Assembly: GCA_005656395.1 (NCBI GenBank)
Contig: SRSI01000038.1
Span: 1 to 64,000, forward strand
DNA length: 64,000 nt
Reading direction: 5' to 3'
From: Strongyloides papillosus
Taxonomy: Eukaryota; Nematoda; Chromadorea; Rhabditida; Strongyloididae
Shown here: positions 5,271-59,593 of the stretch, one piece after another
How the letters are laid out: each line of letters starts with the position of its first letter
Numbering within the stretch: position 1 is the first letter of the stretch
Translations under genes and position numbers: made by a program
Notes under the pieces: generated by a model
The model's database searches: none
What the model was told of the DNA's origin: nothing
What the model saw: the letters and a program-made list of their open reading frames with translations, nothing else

Positions 5271-5838
5271 ATGAATTCTTCCTCATTAAGTCTACCTTTT
5301 AGCGTTACTTCTAATCTAACCTTAAATGAAAAAAAAGCTGTTAGAGGTCTTGGTGTTATATTTAAAAATATTCTAAATGATCAATTTGTGGCAACAAAAG
5401 CAGATATACTTAAGAATCGTATAAGTATTTCAGAAAAAATTGTTTATCATCAATTAGCAATTCTGGTATTGATTCACTACCATTTAATCTTGATATTATT
5501 GAAGATGAGAATTTATCACTAAGATTTTTAGCATTGTCATTGTATCATAAGAATTTATGTGAATATACACATGAAAAAAAACAAATGCTTGACAATTCAT
5601 GAATTAACCATAGTAAACATATCAGTTTTAAGGACTCTTAATTATCTGAATACTTTTCAATATATATACAACGACATAAAAGAAACAAACTTAATGTTGC
5701 GTCATGAATATTTTTCAAGTAGTAGTATTGTTCTAGAAGATTTTAAAAGTACAACAATTTTCTCTAGGACAAGCTCAAATCCAGAAAGTGTAGATATTAC
5801 ACCTTGTTTCGTCTGGTTATGGATACATAAAAACATAC
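5271..5838 (+). pseudogene. Decayed protein-coding gene interrupted by element 1
   Basis: An 83-codon ORF opens with MNSSSLSLPFSV and contains a charged coding-like stretch (KKAVRGLGVIF...). Near 5440 the sense reading shifts frame and continues as about 45 coherent codons (DIIEDENLSLRFLALSLYH) before a stop. A further ORF (5559-5838) runs to the retrotransposon, and its frame continues beyond the insertion at 11167-11280. The frame changes and stops suggest a pseudogene rather than exons, but short introns are not excluded. I do not recognise the family. Confidence 0.4.
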
Positions 5839-6044
5839 TATTATAAATTACTAAACAATTTCAACGTAAATTTATTTGTAAATTATAAAACTAAAAAATA
5901 TACAATAAAACATTATAAAAAAGGAGCCACTTACCCCAACTCCACTTGGGTTTATTATGACTATTTTATTGAAACAATCTTATTTATATAGTTTTAATTT
6001 TGATTACATTTAAGTTTGATACATTACGCGTGTAATGTATAACA
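5839..6044 (-). repeat. 3' LTR of element 1
   Basis: 206 bp. On the coding strand it starts TGTTATAC and ends AATTTATAATA (TG...TA). It matches 10956-11161 at every position I compared. CATAC follows outside. Confidence 0.95.
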
Positions 6045-6081
6045 CTGGGGGGAGAAGGCCAAAATATATTATATTACAGCT

Positions 6082-9000
6082 TCACATAGGCAAATAAGTT
6101 TTCCAATTTTTCTGCATCTCCTTCTTATTCATTTTATACCCCTTATCAATTAGTATTTTCATTAGTTTCTCAGCACTTTCAACATTTCCTTTAGCCAATG
6201 TATCAACAATTTTATTAAAAGTAGATTGTTTCGACGCGAAATGTCTTCCTTCATATTTAAAACCACCAGTTTTTGCCATATTCATCATGGTTGATATGAC
6301 ATTCCACAGATCATTTTGTGGTTGTTTTTTATTTTGTACCAATTGTTTTAGTTTTTCACTTTCAGAGAAACTCAAAGCATATGTGTTATCACTACATATT
6401 ATTGCATTTTTCCTTCCATGTTCTCCAAGGATTAGACATAATAATATCCCCCCGATCTCATATCTCGGTGAGCTTAAACGACCTTTAAGGAAACTTGTTT
6501 CAGAATAATAGTTAATCTGTTTCTTGTCATTAAAAACTTCTAAAATACCAACCCCTGGTACATTAATATGTTTACTTGATGGATCATTTGTAGCACTCCC
6601 ATCTACAAAATATACAGTTTTATCATTATGTTGGTCAAGAAAAGCAAAGATATCCTCATTTGAAACAAGAGTTTGATTTTGTAGATTCTCCATATCTACA
6701 TTATCCGTCTCCTCTATAGTTTTCCCATCTAATATTTCATTAATATCACCATGATTCTCGGTAATTTCCTCCGCAATAATATTATTTGGTGCCTTGTCAC
6801 TCTCACCAATTTTTAAATCATTCAGGAAATTATCGTCGTCAATAACATTATTAAAATTCTCTGATTCTATTTCATTTGATAAATTTTCATGAATTTCAGC
6901 ATTTTCATTAGAATCAGTATTAAAATTTACATTTGACTCATCACATGACGATTTATTATTTTTACTATTCATTTGTAAAGTTAATTCATCATTATCCCAC
7001 ATTAAAGTATTTTCTGCCAAGTCAAAATGTGCTCCATCCTCGTCATGTACATTCTTGGGATCAGAGAAATTCACTAACATACTTTTATTATCCCATTTAC
7101 CATTGATAAAAAATGTGTCATCTAATTTATATTCATTAGAATCATAATTTCCAATATCCTCTATTTGTTGCGATGAAGGGATTCCTGTATGACAAAAATC
7201 TTTTGATACAAAGAAAGAATCTTCATCCGTTTCAATATGGTATATCCGATTTCCTACCTCAGCGATACATAAACCTAAAGTAAATTTTCTATCTAATTTA
7301 CCCTTCCTTTTGAAATATATGTAATGTGGTACTGGTACTTTCTTATAAACATTTGGAACAAATGAAGTTTCGTCCTCCTCCCCACAATAGTATTGTCTAA
7401 TTTTATCAATATTCATAGCGGTGGTAGCTTTTTTTATACTCTCACACATTGAATAATTTTGGTCTAAGAATTTCTCAATCAGTCTTCTCAAAGTTTGGTT
7501 AGCCCTTTCTACTTTTCCATTACTCTGTGAGTGATACCTTGGACTCGTTATCAATAAACAATTATGACTCATTAAATATTCAACCATCTCGTTACTGACC
7601 AGCTCAGGTGCATTATCGACAACAATAAACTGATATGGACAATCTTTAAATACACTTTCTAAACATCCAATCACATCGGCAGTTTTTCTGGTTTTCATCA
7701 AAAAGGAATGTATAAACCCAGTTTTAGCATCCACTAAATTGAAAATTGTTGCTGAATTAATGAACATGAAATCACAATGTCCACGTGTTCTAGCACAACT
7801 TGGAATTACCCATTTAGTACATTTAGCCGGAGGTAATCGTTTGTATTCAACACATTGCAAACAATTATTACAAACTCTCGTGCATATGGTACTCAAACCT
7901 ATACAATAAATTCTCTCACTCAGATATTTGTACAGCTTAGTTCTACCAGGATGAAAAGCAGCATGATGTGCAGTAGCAGCCTTCTTTGCTGTCTCTTCCG
8001 AAACTATTATTCTTTGATCAATCGCAAGACAATTCATTATCATTGTAACAAGTCCAATACGGTCTGCTAAAAACTTTGGCAGCCTAGAAAAGTTTGAATC
8101 AGTTGGAGCTTCAATATACTTATTTATAGACTGACAAACTGGATCACAATTTTGAAAATTTTTAACTTCTTGCATATCAAGCAAGATATTCATTTTTCCC
8201 TCAGGGTGTTGAGTGATTTTCACCATTTTTAATTTCACACCAGTAATATGTGTAATTTTAGCATTCGAATAGATAATCGGAGCGGCAAATCTTTGAATCC
8301 TATTTGAATATTCTAAACAAGCATCACTAGTAAGAATTGATTGAATTACTTTATTGTACGTAATAACACATGGCATTCTCGCATAATCTTTCCATTTGGA
8401 TAAGTATTCAGATAGAGACAATAACTCTTTCTCTATCAGATTATATGAAATTTCAGGTCCTTTCAACTGACGCATGTATATATCAAACAACCGTTTATTT
8501 TCATCCTTGATTATATTATCAACATAGAAGAAAGTTTCAATTCTAATACAATTATCTTCATGACTATGTGTACAATACAACATTTCATCAATAGAAGGAA
8601 TCTTAAATTCATGATACACCTTCATCGCTTCTATTAATTTACACCAAGCTGCTTCTTTCACATCATTCCAATCATAATTTTCACTCTTAGGATATAAATT
8701 TTTCACAATCATTGAAAATTTTGGAATATGGCGAGCAACAAAATTTAATTTTCCAAGCACACGTTGCATTTGAACTCTCGTAGCCGGTCTTTCAAGTTTC
8801 TCAAACTCGTCTACCTTGTCTTGTGCAATAGATATGGATTCCATTGATAAAGAAAATCCTAGAAACTCAGTTTTTTCAATGAAAAACTTACTCTTTTTTA
8901 AATTTAATTTTAACCTCAAATGATACGCCATTTTCATAAACATGATAAGATTTTTTTCTTGCTCCTGTTTATTACCATAGAATATAATATCATCAATATA

Positions 9001-10956
9001 TTGAATAAATTTATCAATATTCCAAAGTTTCATATGGCGATTCAGAGTTGTGTGAAATATATAACTCGAAGAAGTCCATCCAAATTGTAAACGTGAACTT
9101 CCAAAACAACCCAAAGGACAAACAGTATTAGCCAATATTCTCTGACTATCTTTAACTTTAAATAATTTAAATGCCGAAGCAAGATCAATTTGACTAATAA
9201 CATTGGAATTGCTACTTGAAGATTTCAATAATAATTGGATATCTCTAATACTACTCAATTCTAATTCGGTTTCAATCATCATCACATTTTGTTTTCTTGA
9301 ATCCACACACACTCTATTATCTGAAGTGATAGTAATAGGTGAACAGTGAATAGGATTCTTAACTGAATATGTATGACCAAGTAAGATTTGTTTATTCAAT
9401 TCTTTTCCCAGAACTTCTAACTGAGATTGGTTAAGTTTATATGGCTGTTGTATTATTGGTTCAAATCCTTCTTTCAATGGAATTTCTATCTCAACAGCGG
9501 GTTCAACTTGTACCTCATTAAATATGTCCTCATTTTCTATAATAACTCTATGAAGTGAAGGAGCACATTCTTCTAGATAGTTTAACATTTTCAAATTCTC
9601 TTGTCTTTCACCCATTATTTCATCAACCTTCTCGTTGATATTTATGTGAAGCTGTCTAGCATTCATATTTGTAATAGTTGGTTCACCTTCCTGCAACAAA
9701 ATAAAATTCAGCTCACATCTCTTCATGGTTTCAAGACAAAGCACTTTAAGTTTCACGTAACCTAGACAAGGAATAATCGTCTCATCAGCAAGTTTAACCA
9801 TATGATTTGAAGATTGTATTTCATACTCATAAGATTCTAAATTTTCCAACCACGATATAGGTAACATCGGGCTTTCAGCACCTCCATCCACCATAACAGA
9901 TAATGCATTATTCGATATCATCAAGACAGTTCTAATCGTTGGAGATTGTTGATAAGTATTTGGTATTTTTAAAATTTTTTGATTGATTATCTTAGATATA
10001 ATTTGCTCTTGTTTTCTATTTGGACACCTTGAAGCATAATGATTTGGATCACCACAAACATAGCAAAATATTGTTTTACCACCTTGTCGATTTTCCTGAT
10101 TGTTAACCACAGGTTCCCTAGCATTCGGTTGAAAAACTTCAGCCGATCTTGAATAACGTTCATCATTCTTCTTAGTGTCATTCATACTATCATGCTTTCT
10201 CTCATTGTACATGTTGACAATATTTGTCACATAATCATCTCTTCTTTGATTTTGATTTCCCCTATACAACTTATCATCATGATTATTAAATGCTCTACCA
10301 TCAATACCACTCCTTTTGTCGTTATAACTATCTACTGCGTTATACCTAGTAGTGTTATTTGACGTAAAGCGGCTATTTGTAACACGATTCATTCCACCAT
10401 TACCTCTAGTTGTACCATTTACATTGTAACCAGGATTAGATTGTTTCAAAAAATGATTATTGATTGTCATTCTTTTTAAGTATGTCTCCCACATCTCACA
10501 TACAATCGTAGGATTCAATTGATATTCATCTGCTAAATCAGCACATATCGGTTTTGGTATCTCATTCAATAACTTAGCAAGTATAAATGCATCTTCTGGC
10601 AACATGTCATGAATATTACTGATTCTTACCACCATTAATTTCAATCTGGCTAGATATCCCATAGGTGATTCTGAAATTCCTCTCTTCAGATCAAGAATAT
10701 CCATCAATTTATTGATTTCAGTTTTGTTTGCTTTTCTTTCAAATTTCATACAGAAGCTCTCAATTTCTTCTTCAGTTATATCTTCCAGGTTTCCCTCATA
10801 CATGCTATAGAAGGTAGTTCTTAACTCAGCAGGTTGATTACGCAAAAAAAATTGAGTCAATGAAATCCCTGGATCAGCATTAACATAAAATTCCCTCTTC
10901 ATATACTCGAAGTATGGCATGATGCCTTCATAAGTTGTCACCGGTTGAGCCCCCAT
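6082..10956 (-). CDS. Gag-Pol polyprotein of element 1 with a displaced RNase H
   Basis: 1624 residues in one frame. Visible order: Gag; zinc knuckle C298-C301-H306-C311; aspartic protease around D357 (DGGA in place of the usual D-S/T-G-A); reverse transcriptase with YIDD at 653-656; a worn RNase H in which the expected catalytic acids read H797, E844 and Y867; integrase with an HHCC finger (about 985-1030) and D1062, D1114, E1150; an acidic Asn/Glu-rich linker of about 200 residues; then a second RNase H with D1452, E1500, D1523, D1585 and a His before the last Asp. The order protease-RT-RNase H-integrase is that of Ty3/gypsy elements. The C-terminal RNase H has RNase H1-like spacing and is probably the working nuclease. 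The first ATG straddles the LTR and primer-binding site, so the true start may be a later Met (residue 14 or 20). Confidence 0.93.
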   Translation of the reverse strand: MGAQPVTTYEGIMPYFEYMKREFYVNADPGISLTQFFLRNQPAELRTTFYSMYEGNLEDITEEEIESFCMKFERKANKTEINKLMDILDLKRGISESPMGYLARLKLMVVRISNIHDMLPEDAFILAKLLNEIPKPICADLADEYQLNPTIVCEMWETYLKRMTINNHFLKQSNPGYNVNGTTRGNGGMNRVTNSRFTSNNTTRYNAVDSYNDKRSGIDGRAFNNHDDKLYRGNQNQRRDDYVTNIVNMYNERKHDSMNDTKKNDERYSRSAEVFQPNAREPVVNNQENRQGGKTIFCYVCGDPNHYASRCPNRKQEQIISKIINQKILKIPNTYQQSPTIRTVLMISNNALSVMVDGGAESPMLPISWLENLESYEYEIQSSNHMVKLADETIIPCLGYVKLKVLCLETMKRCELNFILLQEGEPTITNMNARQLHININEKVDEIMGERQENLKMLNYLEECAPSLHRVIIENEDIFNEVQVEPAVEIEIPLKEGFEPIIQQPYKLNQSQLEVLGKELNKQILLGHTYSVKNPIHCSPITITSDNRVCVDSRKQNVMMIETELELSSIRDIQLLLKSSSSNSNVISQIDLASAFKLFKVKDSQRILANTVCPLGCFGSSRLQFGWTSSSYIFHTTLNRHMKLWNIDKFIQYIDDIIFYGNKQEQEKNLIMFMKMAYHLRLKLNLKKSKFFIEKTEFLGFSLSMESISIAQDKVDEFEKLERPATRVQMQRVLGKLNFVARHIPKFSMIVKNLYPKSENYDWNDVKEAAWCKLIEAMKVYHEFKIPSIDEMLYCTHSHEDNCIRIETFFYVDNIIKDENKRLFDIYMRQLKGPEISYNLIEKELLSLSEYLSKWKDYARMPCVITYNKVIQSILTSDACLEYSNRIQRFAAPIIYSNAKITHITGVKLKMVKITQHPEGKMNILLDMQEVKNFQNCDPVCQSINKYIEAPTDSNFSRLPKFLADRIGLVTMIMNCLAIDQRIIVSEETAKKAATAHHAAFHPGRTKLYKYLSERIYCIGLSTICTRVCNNCLQCVEYKRLPPAKCTKWVIPSCARTRGHCDFMFINSATIFNLVDAKTGFIHSFLMKTRKTADVIGCLESVFKDCPYQFIVVDNAPELVSNEMVEYLMSHNCLLITSPRYHSQSNGKVERANQTLRRLIEKFLDQNYSMCESIKKATTAMNIDKIRQYYCGEEDETSFVPNVYKKVPVPHYIYFKRKGKLDRKFTLGLCIAEVGNRIYHIETDEDSFFVSKDFCHTGIPSSQQIEDIGNYDSNEYKLDDTFFINGKWDNKSMLVNFSDPKNVHDEDGAHFDLAENTLMWDNDELTLQMNSKNNKSSCDESNVNFNTDSNENAEIHENLSNEIESENFNNVIDDDNFLNDLKIGESDKAPNNIIAEEITENHGDINEILDGKTIEETDNVDMENLQNQTLVSNEDIFAFLDQHNDKTVYFVDGSATNDPSSKHINVPGVGILEVFNDKKQINYYSETSFLKGRLSSPRYEIGGILLCLILGEHGRKNAIICSDNTYALSFSESEKLKQLVQNKKQPQNDLWNVISTMMNMAKTGGFKYEGRHFASKQSTFNKIVDTLAKGNVESAEKLMKILIDKGYKMNKKEMQKNWKTYLPM
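10938..10955 (-). other. Primer-binding site, tRNA-Pro(TGG)
   Basis: Directly inside the 5' LTR the coding strand reads TGGGGGCTCAACCGGTGA. This is the exact complement of the last 15 nt of tRNA-Pro(TGG) at 20662-20733 plus the added CCA. Eighteen consecutive bases match. The site is also translated as the first codons of the polyprotein. Confidence 0.93.
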
Positions 10957-11161
10957 ATTATAAATTACTAAACAATTTCAACGTAAATTTATTTGTAAAT
11001 TATAAAACTAAAAAATATACAATAAAACATTATAAAAAAGGAGCCACTTACCCCAACTCCACTTGGGTTTATTATGACTATTTTATTGAAACAATCTTAT
11101 TTATATAGTTTTAATTTTGATTACATTTAAGTTTGATACATTACGCGTGTAATGTATAACA
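10956..11161 (-). repeat. 5' LTR of element 1
   Basis: 206 bp with the same termini as the 3' LTR. Its last base (10956) is the A of the first ATG of the polyprotein. Confidence 0.95.
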
Positions 11162-11285
11162 CATACTTTATACATATACAAATGATTTAGTTTCTTTAGA
11201 AGTAAGAAATATTAAATTATTCAAGAAAAATATTCATACAATTTACCTGATTGTACTTCAGAATCATTTTTATATTTAAATTCCG

Positions 11286-12003
11286 TTTTTTGTGTCAATC
11301 AGACATTTGATGTACAACTAAAAATTCTACCCTCCATTTTTATTTTACTAACAAAAAGACCAACTAAAATAACATACGTTGGAGAATTTATTTGGCCTAA
11401 AACTTTGACATACAACAACAGTAGTGAGTGAATGTTGAGAAAATTGATTTTTACAAATCTATGGAAATTAAATTTTTTTTTAAAATAAATAATTATTTTC
11501 TAAGGGTAATTTTTTTATGAAAAAACGAATGAGCATAGTGGGAACATATGCTTTTTTGATTTTTGTACTTACATTCAAAAGAACATTAATCTTTTCATTT
11601 TATTTTTTCAATTTTGCTAAATCTAAATGTAAAATTACATGAGAAATCGAATGGGCATACTGAAAATGTGTTCTTTTTAATTTTTTTACTCAAAAATTAA
11701 AAAATGTTTTAAAAAAATGCAAAAGACAATAAAGACGTAAATTTATGAAGTTGAAAGTATGCTCATTATTTTTTTCGTTTAAAATTATCATTGGAAACAA
11801 TGTTTATTCTTAAGAAATTTATTTACTGGAAACTTGTAAAAATCAATTTTTCTGTCTTTGACTCATTGCAGCTGTTATATCTCAAAGTTTCAAGCCGAAT
11901 ACATTTGCCAACAGACATTATTTTAGTTCCTCTTTTTATTAATGAAATAAAAATAGGGATAAAATTTTTAGTTGTACCTTCAATGTCTGATTGACTCAAA
12001 AAA
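11286..12003. mobile_element. Foldback element, right copy
   Basis: Mirror copy of the element at 1432-2149, inside the right inverted arm. Its outer tip at 11286 is where homology between the arms stops, so the element lies exactly at the duplication breakpoint on both sides. Confidence 0.7.
11791..11994 (+). other. Short ORF inside foldback TIR (not a gene)
   Basis: A 67-codon ORF, mirrored at 1441-1644, lies entirely in one TIR of the foldback element. The matching stretch of the other TIR does not keep the frame open. I regard it as a chance ORF. Confidence 0.3.
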
Positions 12004-12446
12004 TTGGATTTAAGTGATTCTTAGTCTTATTAGAGACAATAACAGATTTGTTGATAATGAAATATTGTTTTAAACTCTATTTAAGTTAGATAATATACTT
12101 AAGTATCTTTATATTATCATATTCGTTTTAATCTTTTATTAACATGTTTATTACATTGTAAAGAAATTTTATCATTACTTTTAAAAACAATTTAGAAAGT
12201 ATGGAAAAACCAAAATATTTAGATAAATATGGAGCAACTCCCAACAACATAAATCTAAAGCAGTAATATTATTAATACAAGTGCAAAAAAATTACTTTAT
12301 ACTTATCAAAGATTATACTTTGACTTTCCTTAGTAATTTTATGGAGAAAACGACTATTATGCCAATAATTAATAGTTCTTAAAATAAATACCTTTTGGTA
12401 GTTTATGTTACGTATAAAAAAATTAAGATTTACAAAAGAATAAAAT

Positions 12447-12518
12447 TTCTATTCCGGGCTCGAATCGAGGATCTCTCGATTAAAAATTGAGTGATCTATC
12501 CAACTGAGCTAATGAAGC
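12447..12518 (-). pseudogene. tRNA pseudogene, mirror copy
   Basis: Same sequence as 917-988 in the opposite arm, with the same broken acceptor and T stems. Confidence 0.75.
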
Positions 12519-12738
12519 TGTCCGGAAAACTTTTGCTATAGAGGGAATTTTTGAGGTAAAAAATGGTACATTTTTGTTATCATAAAAATTTAAACAAACG
12601 GTTAAAATTAAGGAAAACAACTAATAATTACAAACAGTGGAACTGCAACGATAAAAGACGAGTAAATGCTTCGAAAACACAATTTTATGAAGCCAAAACG
12701 AAGAAATGGGATATTTCTAAGAAATAAAAAAGTGTTCT

Positions 12739-12820
12739 TGACGAGAGAGGGATTCGAACCCTCGCATCCGAAGATACCAGTGCCTTAAACTGGCGCCTTA
12801 GACCGCTCGGCCATCTCGCC
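12739..12820 (-). tRNA. tRNA-Leu(AAG), mirror copy
   Basis: Identical to 615-696 in the right inverted arm, including the 3' T-run. Both copies look functional, and they are transcribed away from the spacer towards... the duplication's inside from each arm in mirror fashion. Confidence 0.97.
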
Positions 12821-13149
12821 ATGAGTATGAGTGTATCTTTCTGTTCGATCAAATTTTTGTTGATAGACGATGCTTCTAAAAGTGAAAATAAAGTTTTTGT
12901 ATTCATTTTAGCATATAACAAACAATTACAAATAATTATTACATTATTGAATCACTCTGGTAACTTTTTACCTCATAATATTAAAAAAAGTACACCTATA
13001 TATATATATGTTAAAAATTTCTTTTACAAATTTTATTTAATTTTTCGGTTGATTTCTGTTTTAGTGGATAAATTTTCTCAACCTAAAAAAATTAACATGA
13101 ATTAGAAAAAATATACTATTGTGTAATTTTCAAAGAAAGTAAACTAGTT

Positions 13150-13255
13150 TGAATCATTTTCTGATAAAGGTAGTGTATTGCATCAATTGCCTGGCACTGC
13201 CGTTATTAATTACTCCATATAGGAAATTAGGTGAAAGAAGTCCACGAAAGTATTT
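13150..13255 (+). repeat. ~95-bp block related to 54297-54395
   Basis: Copy in the right inverted arm, mirrored at about 180-285. It contains CTGATAAAGGTAGTG and CTCCATATAGGAAATTAGG. Confidence 0.5.
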
Positions 13256-13688
13256 CGTTAATACACTTTTTAGCATTTAATAAAATTTTTCTCTTAGAAA
13301 AAGTATTTTGATAAAATATGTCTTTTGAAAATGTGTTTTTTAAAATTTGAAGAAAAATAAATCTTTCCCATTATTTCTTGTATTTAATATGTTTTAAAAG
13401 ACTTTGTATTTGATTATTTATTTAAAAAATAATTTATTTTCATTTTAAAATGTCTTTTTTTTAAAAAAACGCCTCTATTAAAACAGAAATAATCCCACAA
13501 ACGAAATAATATTTAGTAATTTTTCTCAATATCTATATGATTGTGTACAATCATGAAGTATTTTTGTTATTATAGTAATATTTAAATTATTGCTTTGTAT
13601 AGCTGTATTCATAAGACATTTTTTGTAAGTCCTTTAATTTTTTTGGTTCTAAAAAACTGTTATTAAAATAATATAAAAGTAAACTAGA

Positions 13689-20620: not shown

Positions 20621-20752
<132 letters not shown>

Positions 20753-25736: not shown

Positions 25737-28700
25737 ATGAGTGATAGTGAAGAAATTTCATCGCGTGACGGTTTTAGCGAAGAATTTTCATTACGTGAAG
25801 ACTACAGTGAAGGAATTGCTTTGTGGGATTTGTCAACTGAAGCTAGAGAACTCAAGAGAGAGAAGCAGAAATTGTTGAGAAAGGAAAGAGCTAAGAAAAG
25901 ACTGGCTAGATTTGATTCAATTTTATTTGATAAAAGAAAGGAGATTCTAGAAGCTTCAGGTGAATCATCCAATTCAATTGAGAAGGTAGTAGAGAAGGTG
26001 AATCAATTAACTATCACTTCTACTGAGACCCAAATTGCGATTAAGAACATGGTTGACTATTTTCGGAACATAGAAATCTATAAGGACACGAAGGTTAGTA
26101 TTGACAAATGGCTCCGTCGATTTGAAGCAGCGGTCAAGTTAAGTAAGATCATCGATGAGGATGAGAAGAAGACCACGCTTTCACTTTTTCTGGGAGATGA
26201 AGTTGCCGATTTTGTCGAGAAAATTGAGAATGAATCATTTGCCGAAATTTGTAGAAAATTAAGAGAACGGTTTGATAGTCATGAATCTGCAAGATCTGCT
26301 GAAGCAAAGTTGTGTACGTTCAAGCTAGACTTAAGAGATCATGGAAATGTTGAAACCAAACTCTTGGAATTGATAAAACTGGTAAAAGATTCTATGCCTA
26401 TGAGTGATGAAAAGAAAATTGACTTTGAACAACAACGTGAAGTACGAAGAAGTATCTTGAGCAATGACTGGTTGTATGATAGAAGTACCATTAAGGATTA
26501 CGATAAGGCTATTCACTTGATTAGAGATGTAGCTATTTGGAACATTCAATATCAGGAAAGAAGAGAATTCAGAGAAAATGGTAGAAACAAAAATAGATCA
26601 AATCGTCCATCTTGGAAAGGAGAAATTTCTGATAATCGTGTAGTGAACGTTGATTCTAAGAAGCGTAATCCAGCTGTCAAACTTGTCTGTTATCATTGTA
26701 AGGAAGAAGGTCACAAGAAAACAACTTGCCCTAAATTGAACAATAGATCTACTTCAAGTAATAGTATTACAGTTAGTGCAAATGGTATTGGTGCTGTTAA
26801 TGAGAAAAGAAAAATTAAGTTTCATGAACCTACTCCAGCTGAATGGGAAGAAATTAATTCGGCTTATTCTGCTGTATCTGATTTGATTTACACTGAAGTT
26901 AATCTACGTGGTTCTGATAATGAAGTTCATACAATTTTAGGAATGATTGATAGTGGAAGTCAAGCTACTATTGTAAGGGATGAAATTGTTAAACAGTTGA
27001 AGTTAGATTCTTTGGTTCGTCGCTCTAATTTTAAGATAAAGGGTTTCTTTTCTAATGAACAGGTTATTGTCAAAGGTGAAATTACTTTGGAACTTTCGAT
27101 TGGTAATGAAAAGGCAATTATGACAAATGCTGTTATTATTGATGATGCTTGTATGGATACAAATTTAGATATTATTTTAGGAGTTACTTTAAAAGATTAT
27201 GTCAAAGATATCGTTAACTGTGCTATACTTAAGGGAGAAGTTGATGGTAATAATAAAGTAAAATTAGTTAAATGTTGTAAGGTTATGGTTCAACAGCAAA
27301 TGAATAAGTTAGAAATGGATTTTATTAATGAAGCTGTCATATGTGATATAGAGAAGAAAATGCCTGATGTTAGAAGCTTATTTTCTAAAAATGCCTATGA
27401 TATTGGTTTATGTAATTTGACTCCAAATGAAGAAGATTTTAGAATTTATGAAGAAAAATTATTTGATGTTAATACCAAGGCTTATAAGACTCCAAGACAT
27501 CTTGTTAATGTAGGATTTATTCTTTTAGATGAACTTGTTAAATCAAATATAGCTTGTGAAGATATAACTCCAACGTTTGTTAGTAATGTTTTGCTTGTAC
27601 AAAAATGTGAAATACCAGATGACTTGATGAATGATCGTGAAACTATTTTGAAGTCTTTTAGAATTGTAATTGATCTTAGAGATTTGAATAAGATTACAAT
27701 TCCGATTCCATTTTGCAGTGAATCAGTTGAAGATATTATTTACAAAACTTATGATTCTCGTGAAACCACACCAAAGATATTTAGTAGTATTGATCTATCA
27801 CAAAGTTTTTATCAATTTCCAATTCCAGAATGTAAGCAAAAGTTATTCGGGTTAAGATTTATGGGTAGAGTTTTAACGTTATTGAGATTACCACAAGGTT
27901 ACAAGAACAGTCCAGCACTTCTAACTGATGTTTTGAGAAGGGCTTTTTTAAATTTTGATATCCCAGGAAGTTCTTTAAATTGGTATATAGATGATTCATT
28001 GTTAAGTTCTGTAACGTATGAAAATCATATTGATGCATTGATTGTTTTGTTTAAGACATTGAAAAGTTTGAATCTTAAGGTTAATATTAGAAAATCCACT
28101 TTAGCTAGAGAGACAGTAAAAATGTTAGGTCATGAACTTCATGGAAGAAATAATTCTGTTACACCAAGTGTTGAGGCTAAGAAGATTATTTCATCATGGA
28201 AAGTTCCATCTGACTGTCGCAATGTGAAAAAGTTTTTAGGAATTTTGGGTTATTATTTGAAGTACTTACCAAATCAAGTATGTGTATTGAAACCATTGAG
28301 AGAGATTGTAAGAATTTCTAAATTGGAGGAAAAGAAGGGTAATAAATCATATTTTAAATTTGATGATGAATGTATGAAATCGTTTGAACAAGTTAAACAG
28401 GATTTTGCTAAAGCTGTATTGTTTCATGAAATTAAAGATGCTGCATTAGAAATTTATTCTGATTCTAGTTTAAATCATGTAGGAGGAGTGGTATTTCAAG
28501 TTGTCAATAATAATAAACTTCCTATTATGTATTGTAGTGGACGTATTGATGGTTACAAAATTCATCGTTCAAGTTTCTATTGTGAATTGAAAGCTATTAT
28601 TTGGATGAGTAGGAAACTTAAAACACGTTTGTTAGGTCTCCATAAAATTAGACCAAAATGGTACGTTGATAATATGCCGTTAGTTGGTGCATTGACTAAA

Positions 28701-30140
28701 GGACGTCAAGATGTAACTTTAAGTGCTCAAGAAAATTCATGGTTAGTAGAACTTAGTTTATATAATATTGAATTTATACATATCAAAGGTTGTGAAAATT
28801 GGTTGGCAGATTTGTTGAGTCGTCCAACAAATATTTTGGAAGAATCTGTTGTTGAAGATTGTTTATTGGAGGATACGTTTAATCCAGATGATAAAATGGG
28901 AGAAACTCCATCTAGTGAATCTTGTACTGTTTTGAATAATGCTGTTATTACAAGAAGTTCTTTAAAGAAGCAAAATGTTATGAGTAATGATAAAAATGTT
29001 GCACAATCACCACCAGTTACTGTTGTAGTAAAGCGAGGAAGAGGTAGACCTCGGAAGTTTCCTGTAGTCGTGGAGGAGATTCTTGAGGAGGAGGAACCTG
29101 ATCAAGATAAGTTGGCTTTTACTGAGGTGGGAGAGAATAGTAGTTTAGAAAATTATGAACTTGAAACAACTGGAAATGAAGAGAAAGATATAGATTTAAA
29201 AGAAAGAAAAGGTATCTGGAGAAAACAAAATGATATATTTGTACCAGAGAAATCTAGAGAAGAATTTACGAGTATAGTAAACCGGTTACATGATATTGCA
29301 CACTTTGCATATCCAAAAATGAGAACGAGATTGATGAACATTGCTTACCATCCTGATGAAAATAAAATTATCAAAGATATTACTAAGAGCTGTTTACACT
29401 GTCAATTGAGAAATACAAACCATAAAAGATCATTTGTCCAACGTACAGAAGCTGAAAATCCGCTTGATGAGGTAGCATTTGATGTTTGTGGGCCTTTAAA
29501 AGATGAAAAGAAGAAAGTTTTATTATTAGTTGGAATGGATTTGTTTAGTCGTTTCTTGTATGCTGAGAAAATTAGAGAAACTTCAACGTCATGTTTGTGG
29601 GATGCTATTGACAATTGTTTTAGATATAGCAAGTATCCGAAAGCTCTCCGTCTTGATAATGCAAAATATTGGACTAGTAAAGAATCTAAAATGTTAGCAA
29701 AAGCTAGAGGTGAAAATGGTATCAAATTGAATTTCAAAAGTGCTTACCATTCAACTGGTATGGCAAATGTAGAGAGAATAATAAGATGGGTTGAAGAAGC
29801 TTATAGTAAGAAAAGAATGGATGCTCCAAATATGAAATGTGCTGAAATTATCAAACAAATAACTAAGGAGTATAATCTTACACCACATTCAGCTACAAAA
29901 TGTTCTCCTATGGATTGTCACTTTGGGATTTTATATACTAGAGAAGTACCAAACAAACCAAAGCTGAAGAACAAGTTAAAAGTTAAAGAAGGAGAAGAAG
30001 TTTTAGTTAAGAAGGTCGGACCAGTTAGTAAACTTGGACCAAAATACGCTTTAATGAAGGTGAACAAGTCAAATGATCACCAAGCTCTTATCAATAAAAC
30101 TTGGAGAAGTTTAACGGACATTAAGAAGATTTCACATTAA
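25737..30140 (+). CDS. Gag-Pol polyprotein of element 2
   Basis: 1467 residues. Order: charged Gag with a coiled-coil-like start ([19 protein letters not shown]); zinc knuckle C318-C321-H326-C331; protease with IDSG at D405; reverse transcriptase with LPQG and YIDD (750-753); RNase H with an intact D-E-D-D set (SDSS at D909, [17 protein letters not shown]); an AT-hook [10 protein letters not shown] at 1099-1108; integrase with an H-H-C-C finger and D1249, D1307, E1346. All catalytic residues are present and the frame is unbroken. Gag and Pol share one frame with no shift site. The AT-hook is unusual in this position and may bind AT-rich minor groove. Confidence 0.94.
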
Positions 30141-30891: not shown

Positions 30892-32772
30892 ATGGAAGAA
30901 TACAAGTTATTGGTCAAGTACAACCTGAAACCAATCTCAGTTCAGGCTTGTAGGGATCTGGAACTTCAAGTGTCAGGGACAAAGGAGGAGTTAGCCAGAA
31001 GAATCGTTGAAAGTGGGGAAGATGGCACCAAGCTTGCTTATTTGGTTAGAAGAATTGAGCAAATAGATCCGGAAGATCTTGAGTTTTCTTATAGAGAGCC
31101 AAAAGAAGAAGTAAATGGTATCAAAAGTGAGGTAGTAGAAAATGTTAAGAAAGAATCTACTAGAAATTCATTGGAGCTAATGAAATCAGTTAAGACAATG
31201 GAGGAAGGATGCAACGTGGAGGTTTTTATAAAACGGTTTCAGTTGGCCTTATCAGCGGCTGGATTATCTCCGCAAAGTAGTGAAGCAACGAGTTGGTTAT
31301 TGATGAAAGTTAGTGATGATATTCAGTTTCGTCTTCAGGAATATTCTGTGAATATTGAGGAAGTATCAAGTACAATATTGTGTGGAAAGTTACGCAATTG
31401 GTATTCAACAACTATGACAAAGGCTGAAGCAGAATGTGAATTAATAGCCTTCAAGCTAGATCAAAAAAATATAGAAGAATCACTCAAGAAACTTAAGAAT
31501 CTTGTCTCTGCGCAAAATGTTCATCTTGCAAGAAAGGATAAAGATGATAGAATCCGCTATGAGATATTGAGACAGTTGAGAGAGATTCCCAATTTGAAAA
31601 ATTTAGGATTAATTGGCAGAAATTTCTCGTTGGATGAGTTGGAAGCTGAGTTAAAAATTGAATATAAATTAGAAAATTTACATTTAAGTAAGAATAATGA
31701 AGGAGAGAAAAATTATGATAAAAAAAAAATTAAAAAATGTTTTGGATGCCAGCAGCCTGGGCATATAAAAACAGAATGTCCTAATGTGGAAAAGGAAGAA
31801 AGGATAAGTAATATAATTGAAGAAATGGATGATAGCAATGAGAATACAATTGATGCTAGTATCATGGTAAATAATTTGGTTAAAGCCGTAAAGGTGTTTC
31901 CGGATTCTGGATCTAAAATTAATTGCATAAGTCCTAAGTTAGTTAAAGAAATGAATTTAACTTTATCGGAAAAGAAGAAAAAAGGTGCTTTAGCAGATGG
32001 TTCACCTATCAATGTGAATACCATAATAGAGCAAATTGAGTTGACATTAAATGGAAAGAAAATAAAAATAAGAGATGTTTGGGTATTAGATATTAGGCAT
32101 GATTTACTGATTGGTACAAGAACGTTATGTGAATGTGACTTTGTCATTAAATGGAATAAGTCTATAGATGATGATGATAAAATAATGATGCAATGTGGTG
32201 AAGAACAGCAAGTTGAATTAAAATGTGAAATAATAAAAAAAATTCCAGATGTATGGTTAGAACCTGATTTTGATTTAGAATTGTTCAAATTTAATTCACC
32301 AAACATAGAGCTCAATAATGACGAAATATCAGAACAAAATATGTACGACCCATTATCCGCTATGAGAAACGAATTATCAAATCAAGTTCAAATGAAGTTA
32401 GGTACAGAAAAAATTAAGAAGTTTTATAAATTTAAGCTTGTAGCTGGTTCAATATCTGTAAGAAAAAAAGATGGAACAGTTAGATTATGTCAAGACTTGC
32501 ATGTACTTAATAAGATGGTAAGAAAAGTTAGAAAGAAAAATGCTTATTGGATCGGAAAGTTACCTATAAAAGTGGATAGTATAAAGGCAATGAGATTTAA
32601 AGATGAAAAATACGGGTCATTTAAATTTATTTTTACGAATCACGTTAGAGCCGATGCCAATAGCGTGAATAATGTGTTGTTAAGACAGAAATGTGTGCTG
32701 AAAATCGTCGTCAAGTTCAAAGAAAGGTTAATAAACTTGGATACAAAAAGACAGCTCCTCTTAATAAACTAG
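30892..32772 (+). CDS. Truncated Gag-protease-RT protein of element 3
   Basis: 626 residues. The N-terminus (about 13-43, with ACRDLELQVSGTKEELARRI) looks like a SAP helix-extended-loop-helix motif, a DNA-binding module. Gag follows, then a zinc knuckle C283-C286-H291-C296, a protease with PDSGS at D338, and the beginning of a reverse transcriptase (DGTVRLCQDLHVLNK near 520-535). The polymerase motif, RNase H and integrase are absent. From about 32690 another frame makes better sense for about 45 codons, so the end of this ORF is probably out of frame after a deletion. Gag and protease look intact. Confidence 0.8.
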   Translation: MEEYKLLVKYNLKPISVQACRDLELQVSGTKEELARRIVESGEDGTKLAYLVRRIEQIDPEDLEFSYREPKEEVNGIKSEVVENVKKESTRNSLELMKSVKTMEEGCNVEVFIKRFQLALSAAGLSPQSSEATSWLLMKVSDDIQFRLQEYSVNIEEVSSTILCGKLRNWYSTTMTKAEAECELIAFKLDQKNIEESLKKLKNLVSAQNVHLARKDKDDRIRYEILRQLREIPNLKNLGLIGRNFSLDELEAELKIEYKLENLHLSKNNEGEKNYDKKKIKKCFGCQQPGHIKTECPNVEKEERISNIIEEMDDSNENTIDASIMVNNLVKAVKVFPDSGSKINCISPKLVKEMNLTLSEKKKKGALADGSPINVNTIIEQIELTLNGKKIKIRDVWVLDIRHDLLIGTRTLCECDFVIKWNKSIDDDDKIMMQCGEEQQVELKCEIIKKIPDVWLEPDFDLELFKFNSPNIELNNDEISEQNMYDPLSAMRNELSNQVQMKLGTEKIKKFYKFKLVAGSISVRKKDGTVRLCQDLHVLNKMVRKVRKKNAYWIGKLPIKVDSIKAMRFKDEKYGSFKFIFTNHVRADANSVNNVLLRQKCVLKIVVKFKERLINLDTKRQLLLIN

Positions 32773-37298: not shown

Positions 37299-40200
37299 AT
37301 GCCCTCCAAAGAGGAAAAGTTAAAGAGTGTGTTAAGTGCTGCTAACGAGTTAGGACTGAATATCTCGAACGAAGTAGTACCGGGAAAGAAGCTATCGGTA
37401 ATCAATTTGTTATTGAGAGGTTACAGTGATAAGCCGGAAGAGCTAGTGGAAAATATTAGACTAATTGTAGCTGATATAAAACGGTTATTGAAGACAACTA
37501 CTGTGTTGGTGAAGAAACCTAAGGCTGAGGAGAAAACAGAGAAGATGGCGCGATACGACCTGTCTCTGTACAAAACACTGCCAGTATTTGAAGGTGAAAG
37601 TAGTTTTGTGAATTTCTATGAACAATTTAAAGATGCGATGGAGTTCGCAGTGGATGATGAAGATGAAGAGGAGCTTCATCCTGTACCAGAAAAGAAGCAA
37701 TTAGTGCTTTTAAAAGGAAAACTTGGTGAAAAAGTTCAAGAGAGATTGAGAACCATCGATAAAGATAGCAATTTAACTCAAATCACTGAATTCTTGAAAG
37801 AATGTTACGCCAAGTACGAGGTATCTAAAGATAAGCTTAGAATTCATATCAATAGAATGTCGAGAGATGATTTCAAAAATTATGAAGAGTATTTGAAAGA
37901 GCTATTTAAACTTTGTGAGAAATATCACATGAAAGAAGAGAAAGAAGTCAGAGATAAGTTGATTATAGCTGACATAATTTGTAAACATGATGCACAAACC
38001 CAAAGAGCGGTAGAAAATTGTGGTATAAAGAATCCCGATGATCTTGTAGAGTTTCTAAAATTACGTGAGAAAAGAGATGGTAAATTTGATAACGTGAGAA
38101 ACAAGAAAGGGTTTTCTAGTAAAAGTTTTAATCAGTCCAAGACTGAAGTTAAAGGTACAAAATTTAAGATGCATCAAGAAACTCCAGTTAATAAGAAAGA
38201 CAACATTATATGCTATGCTTGTCAAAGTAAAGGACACTATGCCAGTGAGTGTAAAACAAAAGGTGACAGTCTTGAAAAGGTATCTCGAATTGAAACTGAA
38301 AGGAAAGTGAATGTTGTAAAGAAAGATAAGATGAAGAAATTTGATCGTTGTCCTAGAAGTGTAAGTGAAAGATGCAATAATGATCTCATAATCAATGTAA
38401 AACTGGGCAAAAAGAGTAAAGAGGTTGAAAGAATATGTATGGTAAAGGGGCTTATCGATACAGGAAGCACTGTTACCATAATTTCAGAGAAGGAAGCCAG
38501 ATACTTAGGTTATGATGACAATGTTTGCAAAGATGAAGGAACCTCCTTTGTATTAGCAAATGGTGCCAAGTGGAAGGCAGAAGGGACAATGATGCTTGAA
38601 ATTTGTATCGAAGATGTGAAAATTTATAATCAGGTATCTATTGTTAAAGAAGAAGAAATATGCACCAATGGAAAATATAATATGATTATTGGTAATGACA
38701 CTTTGATGGCAGAAGGTGCAAATATCAATTACGCTACCAAAGAAATCACCTTCTTGGGTAGGTTGGTAAATGCTAATTGCGACTCAAATGTCAAAGCTGA
38801 GGGGCTGATGAACCGTGTATCCACCGTAAGAAGGGAAGGAACGCCCTGTGTATTTGAATTGAAGGAGAAGATGAAGAGTGCATTTCCTGAGGTTATCTCA
38901 GATTCTAAAGTGGATATTGGATGCTGTAAGTTAAGTGCTCCTAAATTGCAGGTATTAAAACAATTTCCAAAAGCATATCGTTACAAACATAGCGTAAAGG
39001 ACAAAGAAATTATCAAAGAAACGATTGAACAATGGCTGCAAATTGGTGCTATCAAAAAGTGCTACAATCCTTCTGTTATCATCAATTTGACAGTTGCAGT
39101 TAGATTTGATACTACTGAGGTAGTGATGAAAAATGACAAATTGGAAGATGAAGTTCAAATACAAGTAAAACGAGATACCAGAGTATGTTTAGATGCAAGA
39201 CAGGTGAATAAATGTTTGCAAAGATCGTTTGTGATACCAAAGAACTTGAAAGATGAATATGGAAGACTGTGCAAAGGTCGTTACTTCTCAAAGATAGATT
39301 TACGACAATTTTTCTTGCAAATACCACTGAACGAGGAAGATAAGACACTGTTGGGAATACAATGTCCTGTAACGAATGAGTTGTACAGTTGGCAAAGGCT
39401 ACCGTTTGGTTTAAATGTATCAAGCAGTATTGCGCAATCCATTATCAACGAAGTTATTGAGAATTGTGAATTTAAGGACGAGAACGGAGCTGTAATTGAT
39501 GAAAACCTCTATGGTGTTATGGCGTATATTGATGATATACTTATTTACACAATGGAGGATTCCATGCAATTTCATAAGACGATTTTGTTTTGTATGTTAA
39601 AAGGTTTATGTAATTACGGTTTAAAGATTAATGCTGGTAAAATGGAGCTTATGAGAACCGAGATATGTTATCTCAATGTTATTTTAAGTCATATGAAGAT
39701 AAGACCAAATCCAATGTATATTAAGGGACTATTGAAAATGAAAAAGCCTTCTAATGTATCGGAGTTAAGGAGATACTTAGGAGCAGTAAATTACTGTCGT
39801 GATTTTATATTTGGTATAACAGAATTGGAAAAACCACTGTTAACTTTATTGCAAAAGGATCAATCCTATTTGTGGACTGATGAATGTGAGCGAAGTTATA
39901 ATGAAATACAGACAATGTTGAAGGAAGTTGGATTTTTAAAATTGCCTGACCAGAGTAGAGAATTTATTTTATTTGTTGATGCAAGTAAGTATAGTGAGTC
40001 CGGATTACTAATGCAGATGGCGAAAGTCAATGAAATTGAGAAACTATGGATTGAAAAAGAATCGAAGAGATATCCTGACAAATACAAGGGTATTGTTGAA
40101 GACTTGAAAGAAAATCAATCAAGCATAAATGAAGATGAAGAAAGATTATTACCTGTTGGCTATTATTCTAAGAAGTTAGGAATGGGGGAGAGTGCTAGTG

Positions 40201-41720
40201 CAACGCTTCTGGAAGTTAGAGGTTTATGTAGAACATTAGATCACTTCAAAGAAGTTACGAAAACTTCCAAGGTTATAGCTTACACAGACCATAAACCCAT
40301 TCTACAAATGTTGAAAGGTGGAAAACCAGAATCTGGACGTTATATAAGATATATAAATAGAATTTTTCAATATGATGGGCTGAGAATCAGGTATTTAGAA
40401 GGTGCTAAGAATATCGCAGCTGATTACATGTCAAGAGCCTACTGTAGAGCTACGAGAAGAAAATTAATAAGAGTAAAAGAAAAAGGAAATGAAATCTTAG
40501 TCAAAGATGGAAACAACCCGGCTGAAGAAGGAGGAGGATGCACAGAAAGTCAACTCAACGATGAAATCCAAGGAAAAGAAGAGATGGAGGAGAAAAAGCT
40601 GCTCCTGTTCAAAGAAATCCATGACCAACAAGGACATCCATATGCTGAAGCAAGTATTGACATGTTGGAGAAAAGATGGCCGTACGAGAACATTAAGCGA
40701 GAGTATAGAAATTATGTTAACAACTGTAAAATATGTATCGAACGTAACGGCATCCACAAAACAATGATGAAGATGGGAGAGTTCACCGCCGATAGACCAC
40801 TTCAAATGGTGCAAATGGACTGCCTGGGACCATTACCTACATCTGAGAGAGGCTACAAACATCTGTTGGTATGGATAGATGTCAATACTAGATTTGTGGG
40901 AGGGTGGCCTATCCCAGATTTAAGTCATGAAAAAATAGTTGAAGCTGTAGAAGAATCTCTGATCTACAGATATGGGATGGTGGAAAATGTAAAGGCCGAC
41001 AATAGCAAATATTTCGATAAAGCATTAGAGGTACTAAAAGAAAGATACAAAATTGGTGTTGAAAGAGGGGTACCATACAAACATACATCCCAATCTTTGG
41101 TGGAGCGTGTTATTCAAACACTCCAAAATGTAATTAGCAAGACGGGAATGGAACTTCTTATCAACTTGGAGGCCCAATGGGACAAAGTGGTTCAACGTGG
41201 ATTTTATGCTATAAACAATATGAAGCATGCGACTTTGAGAGAATCCCCGTATTTTTTAATGTTTGGTAGGAGACCACTATTATCATGGGACTTAGAAGAA
41301 ATGGAAGATATGGATGCTACTGAGAGAGAAGGAAGAATAAGTTATTTGGTGGACCAGCAGACTGAATTTGAGCATCAATTATGTAATCGTTACAGCGCCT
41401 TGTTAATGAAAGCTGTGAGAAGTAAAATGAATCAAATGATCATGGAAAATAAGAAAAAGGAAAAGTCTGCTGTTGAAAAATCCCATTATACACCGGAGCA
41501 AACGCCGCGAGATCGATTAAATATAAAAGTTGGAGATCCTGTAGCCGTATTCTTTCCTAAAAAGAATAAGTTCGAGGCCTGCTGGAAGACAGGTTATATT
41601 GTGGTAAATATAACGAATGATGAAGGAGAAAGTTTAAAAATTTATTGTAAGAAGAAAAATAAAACCAAAGGCCGACCATTAGTAAGAAGCATTAATGATG
41701 TCAAATTATTGAACCTCTGA
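37299..41720 (+). CDS. Gag-Pol polyprotein of element 4
   Basis: 1473 residues in one frame. Gag (1 to about 300, Lys/Glu-rich); zinc knuckle C305-C308-H313-C318; protease IDTGS at D387; reverse transcriptase with RLPFG and YIDD (743-746); RNase H with a complete set (VDAS at D894, LLEVRG, YTDHKPI, AADYMSR); integrase with an H-H-C-C finger (HDQQGH ... CKICIE) and D1174, D1234, E1269. The C-terminus ends in KGRPLVRSINDVK, a motif also seen as GRPLVRDV at the end of element 5. The start is the first ATG after the leader. All enzymes look competent. Confidence 0.95.
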   Translation: MPSKEEKLKSVLSAANELGLNISNEVVPGKKLSVINLLLRGYSDKPEELVENIRLIVADIKRLLKTTTVLVKKPKAEEKTEKMARYDLSLYKTLPVFEGESSFVNFYEQFKDAMEFAVDDEDEEELHPVPEKKQLVLLKGKLGEKVQERLRTIDKDSNLTQITEFLKECYAKYEVSKDKLRIHINRMSRDDFKNYEEYLKELFKLCEKYHMKEEKEVRDKLIIADIICKHDAQTQRAVENCGIKNPDDLVEFLKLREKRDGKFDNVRNKKGFSSKSFNQSKTEVKGTKFKMHQETPVNKKDNIICYACQSKGHYASECKTKGDSLEKVSRIETERKVNVVKKDKMKKFDRCPRSVSERCNNDLIINVKLGKKSKEVERICMVKGLIDTGSTVTIISEKEARYLGYDDNVCKDEGTSFVLANGAKWKAEGTMMLEICIEDVKIYNQVSIVKEEEICTNGKYNMIIGNDTLMAEGANINYATKEITFLGRLVNANCDSNVKAEGLMNRVSTVRREGTPCVFELKEKMKSAFPEVISDSKVDIGCCKLSAPKLQVLKQFPKAYRYKHSVKDKEIIKETIEQWLQIGAIKKCYNPSVIINLTVAVRFDTTEVVMKNDKLEDEVQIQVKRDTRVCLDARQVNKCLQRSFVIPKNLKDEYGRLCKGRYFSKIDLRQFFLQIPLNEEDKTLLGIQCPVTNELYSWQRLPFGLNVSSSIAQSIINEVIENCEFKDENGAVIDENLYGVMAYIDDILIYTMEDSMQFHKTILFCMLKGLCNYGLKINAGKMELMRTEICYLNVILSHMKIRPNPMYIKGLLKMKKPSNVSELRRYLGAVNYCRDFIFGITELEKPLLTLLQKDQSYLWTDECERSYNEIQTMLKEVGFLKLPDQSREFILFVDASKYSESGLLMQMAKVNEIEKLWIEKESKRYPDKYKGIVEDLKENQSSINEDEERLLPVGYYSKKLGMGESASATLLEVRGLCRTLDHFKEVTKTSKVIAYTDHKPILQMLKGGKPESGRYIRYINRIFQYDGLRIRYLEGAKNIAADYMSRAYCRATRRKLIRVKEKGNEILVKDGNNPAEEGGGCTESQLNDEIQGKEEMEEKKLLLFKEIHDQQGHPYAEASIDMLEKRWPYENIKREYRNYVNNCKICIERNGIHKTMMKMGEFTADRPLQMVQMDCLGPLPTSERGYKHLLVWIDVNTRFVGGWPIPDLSHEKIVEAVEESLIYRYGMVENVKADNSKYFDKALEVLKERYKIGVERGVPYKHTSQSLVERVIQTLQNVISKTGMELLINLEAQWDKVVQRGFYAINNMKHATLRESPYFLMFGRRPLLSWDLEEMEDMDATEREGRISYLVDQQTEFEHQLCNRYSALLMKAVRSKMNQMIMENKKKEKSAVEKSHYTPEQTPRDRLNIKVGDPVAVFFPKKNKFEACWKTGYIVVNITNDEGESLKIYCKKKNKTKGRPLVRSINDVKLLNL

Positions 41721-55537: not shown

Positions 55538-55797
55538 AGTAAAAATTTTATTAAATATAAGACTGGAGTTTACCCCTAAAATAAAACACAATCATACAAC
55601 ACAATATTAATTACAAATTTAGGATAGTTAACGGTAATAATAATAAAATTTTTGGGGTATTTGTTAATGAGGACTAAGAAATCATAAATTTTGAGTAGTG
55701 TTCACTATTTTGAAATAGCTCCACTTTTAAGTAGAATGATTAGTCCCTTAAGGAAAATAGTGACGCGATGACACCAAATGTTTGATACGCCATTACT
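55538..55797 (-). repeat. 3' LTR of element 5
   Basis: 260 bp. Its first bases (AGTAA) supply the TAA stop of the polyprotein. Confidence 0.93.
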
Positions 55798-58700: not shown

Positions 58701-59593
58701 AATCTTTTCATTAAGGTTCTTTTCCCAGCGGTTACAATTTCAACTGCAGGCAACTCATCCACATTTACAAATTCTTTAGCAATACACTTTGGAACTATTG
58801 TAGAGTCAGATCCACTATCAATTAATCCATTAAAACAATAACCATTAATCATAGCCTTAACGATGAAGAAGTCTGACTTGTCTTCAACTTTCTTCTCTTT
58901 CAATGTAACCATTGTGACATTCTTTTTACACTCATTCACTTTGTGCCTTTTTTCACCGCATTTCAAACATAAGTTTAATCTTTTACGGCAATCATCATAG
59001 GAATGCCCTTTCTTTTTACAATAAGAACATGAGTTTGATTCACTTCTTTGTTTCTTATGGTCATTTTTGGCACTATTGTGATGCATGTTAATGGAGCAAG
59101 CGATATCAGCAGCAGCTTCTTGAATGGATTTGTAATCCTTTCTACAATTCATTAATCTTTCTCTTGCTATTCTGTTTTTCTCTCCCAATTGAATGGTGAG
59201 GCGGTCGAGTTGCCAATTGAACAATTCATCTTCATCAGTAACACTAGAAGCACATTTAACCAATTCAGCAAATTTTAAAATTTCCTTTTCAACATCCTTA
59301 AATTCAAATTGAAACGATAACAATCTACTTTGAGCAGTAGTCTTTGAAATTTGACCATTATATTTCTCTTTTAAACTGTTAACAAGTGCATTGTAGTTTG
59401 CAAATTCCTTTCCTTCTAAGAAGTCAAGACAGGCATCAGGTAATTGAATCTTTAACATAGCTTGTTTGCGTGCATCATCTAGATTTTGACTATCAAGAAG
59501 TATAGTCATTCTTCTCAAGAATAGACCTATGTCCTTACTCATATCAGTATACTTTGGCAGTTCAATGTTCATTGTACCAGTAGTTGGATCCAT
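55793..59593 (-). pseudogene. Gag-Pol of element 5 with two in-frame stops
   Basis: Three open segments lie in one frame: 59593-57881 (570 residues: Gag, two zinc knuckles CSYCKKKGHSYDDC and CLKCGEKRHKVNEC, protease IDSGS, first half of the reverse transcriptase to LPQGAVNSP), 57880-57485 (reverse transcriptase with YQDD at 57827-57838), and 57484-55793 (RNase H with VDAS, TYLELKA, AHSDHRPL and IADYIS; integrase with an H-H-C-C finger, ATDIC, ICDQG and the E of NAICERS). The breaks are TAA at 57881-57883 and TAG at 57485-57487. YQDD in place of YIDD or YVDD is unusual. The protein ends GRPLVRDVAQCK... as element 4 does nearby. All enzyme motifs survive. Confidence 0.92.

Follow-up and report, generated by a model that had tools for sequence, protein, structure and literature searches.

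Why does a long terminal repeat (LTR) retrotransposon carry two ribonuclease H (RNase H) domains, one linked to its reverse transcriptase (RT) and the other lying behind its integrase? The question is raised by element 1 (W1) of a 64,000-nucleotide stretch of Strongyloides papillosus DNA (contig SRSI01000038.1, positions 1 to 64,000, here called the window), whose domains follow the order gag, RT, degenerate native RNase H, integrase, acidic linker and C-terminal RNase H1-type domain. An earlier reading, made from the letters without database searches (the sequence-only reading), had proposed that an RNase H was gained downstream of the integrase while the native one decayed. This arrangement was seen in 11 full-frame families (W1, L005, L007/L010, L013/L015, L016/L018, L020, L021, L022/L023, L024, L025 and L028), and is therefore not the property of one odd copy. 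The explanation favored here, at a probability of roughly 0.77, is that a cellular-type RNase H1 was gained behind the integrase, that this C-terminal domain cuts the RNA, and that the native domain serves as a tether, the inferred parts being the catalytic swap, the single gain and the way in which the C-terminal domain reaches its substrate. The parts of W1 are the following.

5834-11166, minus strand: the whole LTR retrotransposon W1, with identical LTRs and one intact frame
5834-5838 and 11162-11166, no strand: target-site duplication of 5 bp, GTATG in the sense direction, from comparison of the flanks
10956-11161, minus strand: 5′ LTR of 206 bp, starting with TG, from a 207-nt repeat that recurs unchanged at 5839-6045; on the 5′ LTR side one of its bases is part of the target duplication
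10938-10955, minus strand: primer binding site, with 18 of 18 bases complementary to the tRNA-Pro(UGG) 3′ end (CCA included)
6082-10956, minus strand: gag-pol, a single frame of 1624 residues, open throughout, from the list of open reading frames
10018-10065, minus strand: CCHC zinc knuckle, residues 298-313 (17.9 bits, under the cut-off of 20.8)
8851-9303, minus strand: RT core, residues 552-702, with YIDD from 653 (RVT_1, 57.9 bits)
8227-8589, minus strand: degenerate native RNase H, weakly matched by its profile, residues about 790-910, with E844 kept and the TDH acid and ADxxSR motif lost
7840-7986, minus strand: integrase H2C2 zinc finger, residues 991-1039 (29.6 bits)
7477-7779, minus strand: integrase core, residues about 1060-1160 (rve, 29.0 bits, under the cut-off of 32.6)
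6655-7209, minus strand: acidic linker, residues 1250-1434, net charge -34 (44 acidic, 10 basic)
6157-6639, minus strand: C-terminal RNase H1-type domain, residues about 1440-1600, with D1452, E1500, D1523 and D1585
6045-6058, minus strand: C-run, sense CCTTCTCCCCCCAG, in the expected place of the polypurine tract
5839-6044, minus strand: 3′ LTR, the same sequence as the 5′ LTR, from repeat comparison

W1 most likely belongs to the Ty3/gypsy-type LTR retrotransposons, has been active recently and has a Strongyloides-like nematode as its host. The best match of its RT among structures was Ty3 (7q5b, E 4e-55), and the order RT, RNase H, integrase, the LTR pair, the tRNA primer site and the short target duplication are those of Ty3/gypsy elements (Metaviridae). 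D78, D130 and E166 were invariant in the integrase alignment (A3), and no Pfam match to a protease was obtained in the W1 frame. The primer binding site overlaps the start codon of gag-pol, and the tRNA-Pro(UGG) that it matches is encoded at 20662-20733 in the same window. In the elements in which an LTR pair was found, the two repeats (compared without gaps) differ at 0 to 3 places; a pair was looked for in L023 and none was found. The nematode host named by the sequence-only reading agrees with 66 places at which the N-terminal domain of nematode cuticle collagen was matched and with nearest proteins from Strongyloides. The spliced leader model RF00198 found no match in the window, and likewise none in 14 controls, and near matches to the SL1 pattern numbered 3, with 2 in the reversed control, so that neither test speaks on the host.

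Taken by itself, the C-terminal domain of W1 did not reach PF00075, its best match in a phmmer search of the PDB was the foamy RNase H at E 0.31, NCBIfam gave no match (in three relatives RNase H models came up under their own cut-offs), and in a protein search with the domain as sole query none of 255 candidates passed. The W1 domain is picked up at E 2.6e-14 by a profile from which W1 and the three relatives nearest to it were left out, E. coli RNase HI is picked up at 4.6e-26 by a profile of 22 C-terminal domains, and structure prediction for the W1 domain returned an RNase H fold with a predicted local distance difference test score (pLDDT) of 93.8; through its family profile and fold, then, the region scores as an RNase H. 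D1452, E1500, D1523 and D1585 are all where they had been read, and the four catalytic acids are present in 22 of 22 domains aligned from the same genome. After the integrase, PF00075 was above the cut-off in 8 of the 10 full-frame relatives scanned, and the other two, L005 and L007, stay under it, yet align with all four acids. The complete set of acids, together with the leave-out profiles, rules out a chance match as the source of this domain. Two details of the first description needed amendment: the additional His is present (H1572), but does not lie at the flexible-loop His place of RNase H1, and the linker, given as some 200 residues, is indeed acidic, with the measured span listed above. 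At the loop place itself the 22 rows have H in 17, K in 4 (W1, L005, L007 and L013) and D in 1, and R does not occur.

The RT-linked domain has a predicted Ty3-like fold despite the loss of its TDH acid and ADxxSR motif. E844, H797 and Y867 were found at the positions given by the sequence-only reading, but in the native RNase H alignments the place of the first missing acid falls on S, making the assignment of H797 uncertain, and D801, a few residues further on, may represent that acid in a shifted position. The losses of the TDH Asp and of the last-Asp region stood: the TDH place is Y, ADxxSR is absent, and the domain does not align with all four acids. The active site was incomplete in 13 of 13 native pieces examined; among the full-frame families an acid occupies the TDH place in 0 of 11 and the last place in one of 11 (L025, Asp), and ADxxSR occurs in 0 of 11. 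The window's canonical LTR elements, W2, W3 and W4, retain the native active site; PF00075 gave no match in them, nor did a PDB search with the native RNase H of W3 as query. It might be argued that both RNase H domains are catalytic, the native one keeping weak activity with E844 and the shifted D801, since the Glu is retained in 9 of the 11 full-frame families and an acid stands (by eye) at a shifted place in several of them. With the TDH place and the ADxxSR motif lost throughout, the last acid confined to L025, and a W1 structure model of very low confidence just behind the native RNase H (model positions 437-457), this is very unlikely.

The full-frame relatives share the W1 domain order and are 21-35% identical between families, and a second copy of W1, 100% identical as printed, lies on another contig; an odd single copy or an assembly join was thereby ruled out. 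Six partial frames give PF00075 scores of 48-68 bits behind the integrase region. When the best 30 of 55 PF00075 places were examined for integrase context, the integrase preceded the RNase H in 28 (26 by script, plus L041 and L043, in which a stray match had masked it in the script output), the remaining two being L031, a host gene, and L057, with no integrase in reach. Of the best 30 P0001-type places, 15 lie within 6 kb of one of the 55 PF00075 places, as against 0 of 56 W3-type canonical matches. The integrase tree places 17 clade members apart from 3 canonical elements (85/98, long branches). Group I (W1 and L005-L028) and group II (L032-L059) are used here as labels and not as clades, because this tree puts L032 with group I. 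Other nematode elements with the same order had been suggested as a check, and the nearest related proteins were found in S. venezuelensis (85% identity across an integrase part), in S. stercoralis (49% from the integrase end to the RNase H, whose domain lacks its middle) and in S. papillosus (P0008, 96.5% identical to L042, and P0009, 98.1% to L059). In two protein searches, 6 of 6243 candidates (2 of the 6 from Strongyloides) and 7 of 3124 (5 of the 7) passed; as the sensitivity was limited, absence outside Strongyloides should not be read from them. Among viral contigs, no relative was found in 9 pattern matches.

Where did the second domain come from? The C-terminal profile gave 92.9 bits to E. 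coli RNase HI, 80.2 to the host RNase H1-like gene, 78.0 to the human enzyme, and 60.3 and 50.4 to the RNases H P0011 and P0013; the window's three canonical elements reach at most 15.2 with their native RNases H. In the RNase H tree, which is weak and was built without rows from retroviruses or Tat, the LTR domains split from the rest at 88/93. Because of these scores and this split, the C-terminal domain is, by its sequence, of cellular type. A relocated duplicate of the RNase H native to the element could be entertained given so weak a tree and native pieces of the clade that score as much as 13 bits against the C-terminal profile; set against 50-93 bits for cellular RNases H versus 15 or less for the canonical LTR ones, and against the split in the tree, a duplicate is highly improbable. 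The domain perhaps goes back to one gain. The host RNase H1-like gene itself (L031, 1337-1887) has one intron, and its fourth catalytic acid seems to be a His by comparison with human RNase H1.

Changes pooled across 4 recent copy pairs were 23 synonymous and 11 nonsynonymous in the native RNase H (ratio of nonsynonymous to synonymous proportions, pN/pS, 0.12) and 29 and 18 in the C-terminal domain (pN/pS 0.16), so that purifying selection, on small counts, seems to keep both domains. Together with the predicted fold, this makes a tether the most likely role of the native RNase H. Several observations weigh against the favored explanation. The selection counts are small for both domains, and in one of the 4 pairs, L016/L018, the C-terminal domain has no synonymous excess (1 synonymous and 4 nonsynonymous changes; 3 and 6 in L022/L023). 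A pure tether would not need the conserved native Glu, nor does the L025 Asp in the last-acid column fit easily; W1 lacks the loop His that 17 of 22 rows carry; all 22 C-terminal domains are grouped at only 74/54 in the RNase H tree; and the protein P0003 has neither the mid-domain E nor the third acid, perhaps as an artefact of gene prediction.

If the gain of a cellular-type domain is nevertheless accepted, the ancestor of the W1 lineage would have acquired it behind the integrase, and the C-terminal domain would then perform the RNA cleavage of reverse transcription, i.e., template degradation and primer release. It might get to the hybrid across the long acidic linker or via proteolytic release, the polyprotein, uncleaved or cleaved, presenting it there. 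The native RNase H, its active site lost, would persist, still folded, between RT and integrase as a tether comparable to that of retroviruses, and would stabilise the RT on template and primer. Alternatively, the C-terminal RNase H might be an integration or targeting module that binds RNA:DNA hybrids at the target chromatin, with a host RNase H serving reverse transcription. The location behind the integrase, the end at which chromoviruses place their chromodomains (excerpts of PMC5348765), and the incomplete native site in every piece would suit such a module; pure binding, on the other hand, would not require the four acids found in all 22 domains, and a tRNA gene was present in one of 33 scanned loci, tRNA genes being the only targets examined. 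This module is thus unlikely, and the single locus in 33 means that there is no preference for tRNA genes, so that tRNA-gene targeting was ruled out.

In the dual RNase H arrangement of retroviruses and Odin, the integrase comes after the added RNase H. The favored explanation has its closest parallel here: in vertebrate retroviruses, lokiretroviruses and Odin a degenerate native RNase H serves as tether and a catalytic RNase H of the Fungi/Metazoa type has been added, which in retroviruses and Odin adjoins the native one downstream (PMC10508981). The W1 lineage likewise has a degenerate native RNase H, folded by prediction, and an added one with a complete DEDD, but the added domain stands after the integrase instead of directly after the native RNase H, and the host is a nematode. 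W1 may thus work like the retroviral pair, and is not filed as a member because its added domain lies elsewhere. In Tat elements five structures (#1-#5) are known, with the added RNase H beside the native one (in one or two copies), before the RT, or in reading frames before pol or gag, never after the integrase, and the native domain decays wherever the added one sits (PMC10508981). Plant Tat and the oomycete Chronos and Archon share with W1 the degenerate native RNase H, but their added domain is archaeal-like with an Arg at the active-site loop (PMC10508981; PMC5348765). As R is absent from the loop place in the W1 family, its domain is not of this type. The independent gain proposed by the sequence-only reading is made probable by position, by the His-type and not Arg-type loop and by the host. 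Gmr1 elements are also Ty3/gypsy elements with an altered pol order, but according to excerpts of PMC8220671 their integrase precedes the RT, whereas W1 keeps RT, RNase H and integrase in order and has a domain added. Canonical Ty3/gypsy elements, W2-W4 included, share with W1 the Ty3-like RT, the order gag, protease, RT, RNase H, integrase and the LTRs. No report of an added RNase H after the integrase was found in the papers searched (preprints and repeat databases were outside the search), and W1 appears to be a convergent dual RNase H, known in kind, with a position new in that literature.

Loss of redundancy has been proposed as the cause of native RNase H decay in Tat (PMC10508981). The native site of W1 decays although the integrase separates the new enzyme from the RT, which fits this idea and opens it to testing with a short domain. 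One step in the evolution towards retroviruses was the replacement of the RNase H together with the formation of a tether; a further case, seen in many families of a single genome and with the new domain placed differently, allows the question of which parts of this step are forced.

Ty3/gypsy elements commonly have a polypurine tract in front of the 3′ LTR. At that place, the only one at which a primer tract was sought, W1 has its C-run, and a C-run (at least 3 C within about 12 bases before the 3′ LTR) occurs in 9 of the 11 families (W1, L005, L007, L016, L020, L021, L022, L025 and L028) and in neither L013 nor L024. The canonical elements have GGGG (W2, W3) or GGCGAGG (W4) there. In group II, where the LTR start was taken from TG by eye except in L034, which has an LTR pair, a G-rich tract precedes the TG in L035, L037, L041, L042, L050 and L054, and L034 has neither a C-run nor a G-rich run. 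Since most group II elements combine the same C-terminal domain with G-rich tracts, a link between the C-run and the mere presence of the C-terminal RNase H was ruled out. It is a tentative and rather doubtful idea that in a whole Strongyloides lineage the RNase H that does the work sits behind the integrase and that, in the W1 branch, a C-run replaces the polypurine tract; if true, plus-strand synthesis at the C-run would begin by a route for which LTR elements offer no known example. A second type of primer site starts with TGGCGATCCTGG in L016, L021, L022, L025 and L034 and with TGGCGATCCTG in L020, and matches the end of the window's tRNA-Arg(ACG) bar one base after TGG.

The canonical elements W2-W4 occupy three further places in the window, and a separate frame lies behind W2.

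25737-30140: canonical element
30892-32772, plus strand: gag-protease frame of 626 residues, with CCHC, an aspartyl protease and a weak match of SAP type
37299-41720: canonical element
55793-59593: canonical element

Genes for tRNA are dense (23 ARAGORN calls in 64 kb), at a G+C content of about 22-31%. At the start of the contig, W1 lies in the spacer of a perfect inverted repeat of more than 2 kb (1-2165 and 11270-13432), each arm of which contains a tRNA-Leu gene, and which is either a palindrome or an assembly end effect.
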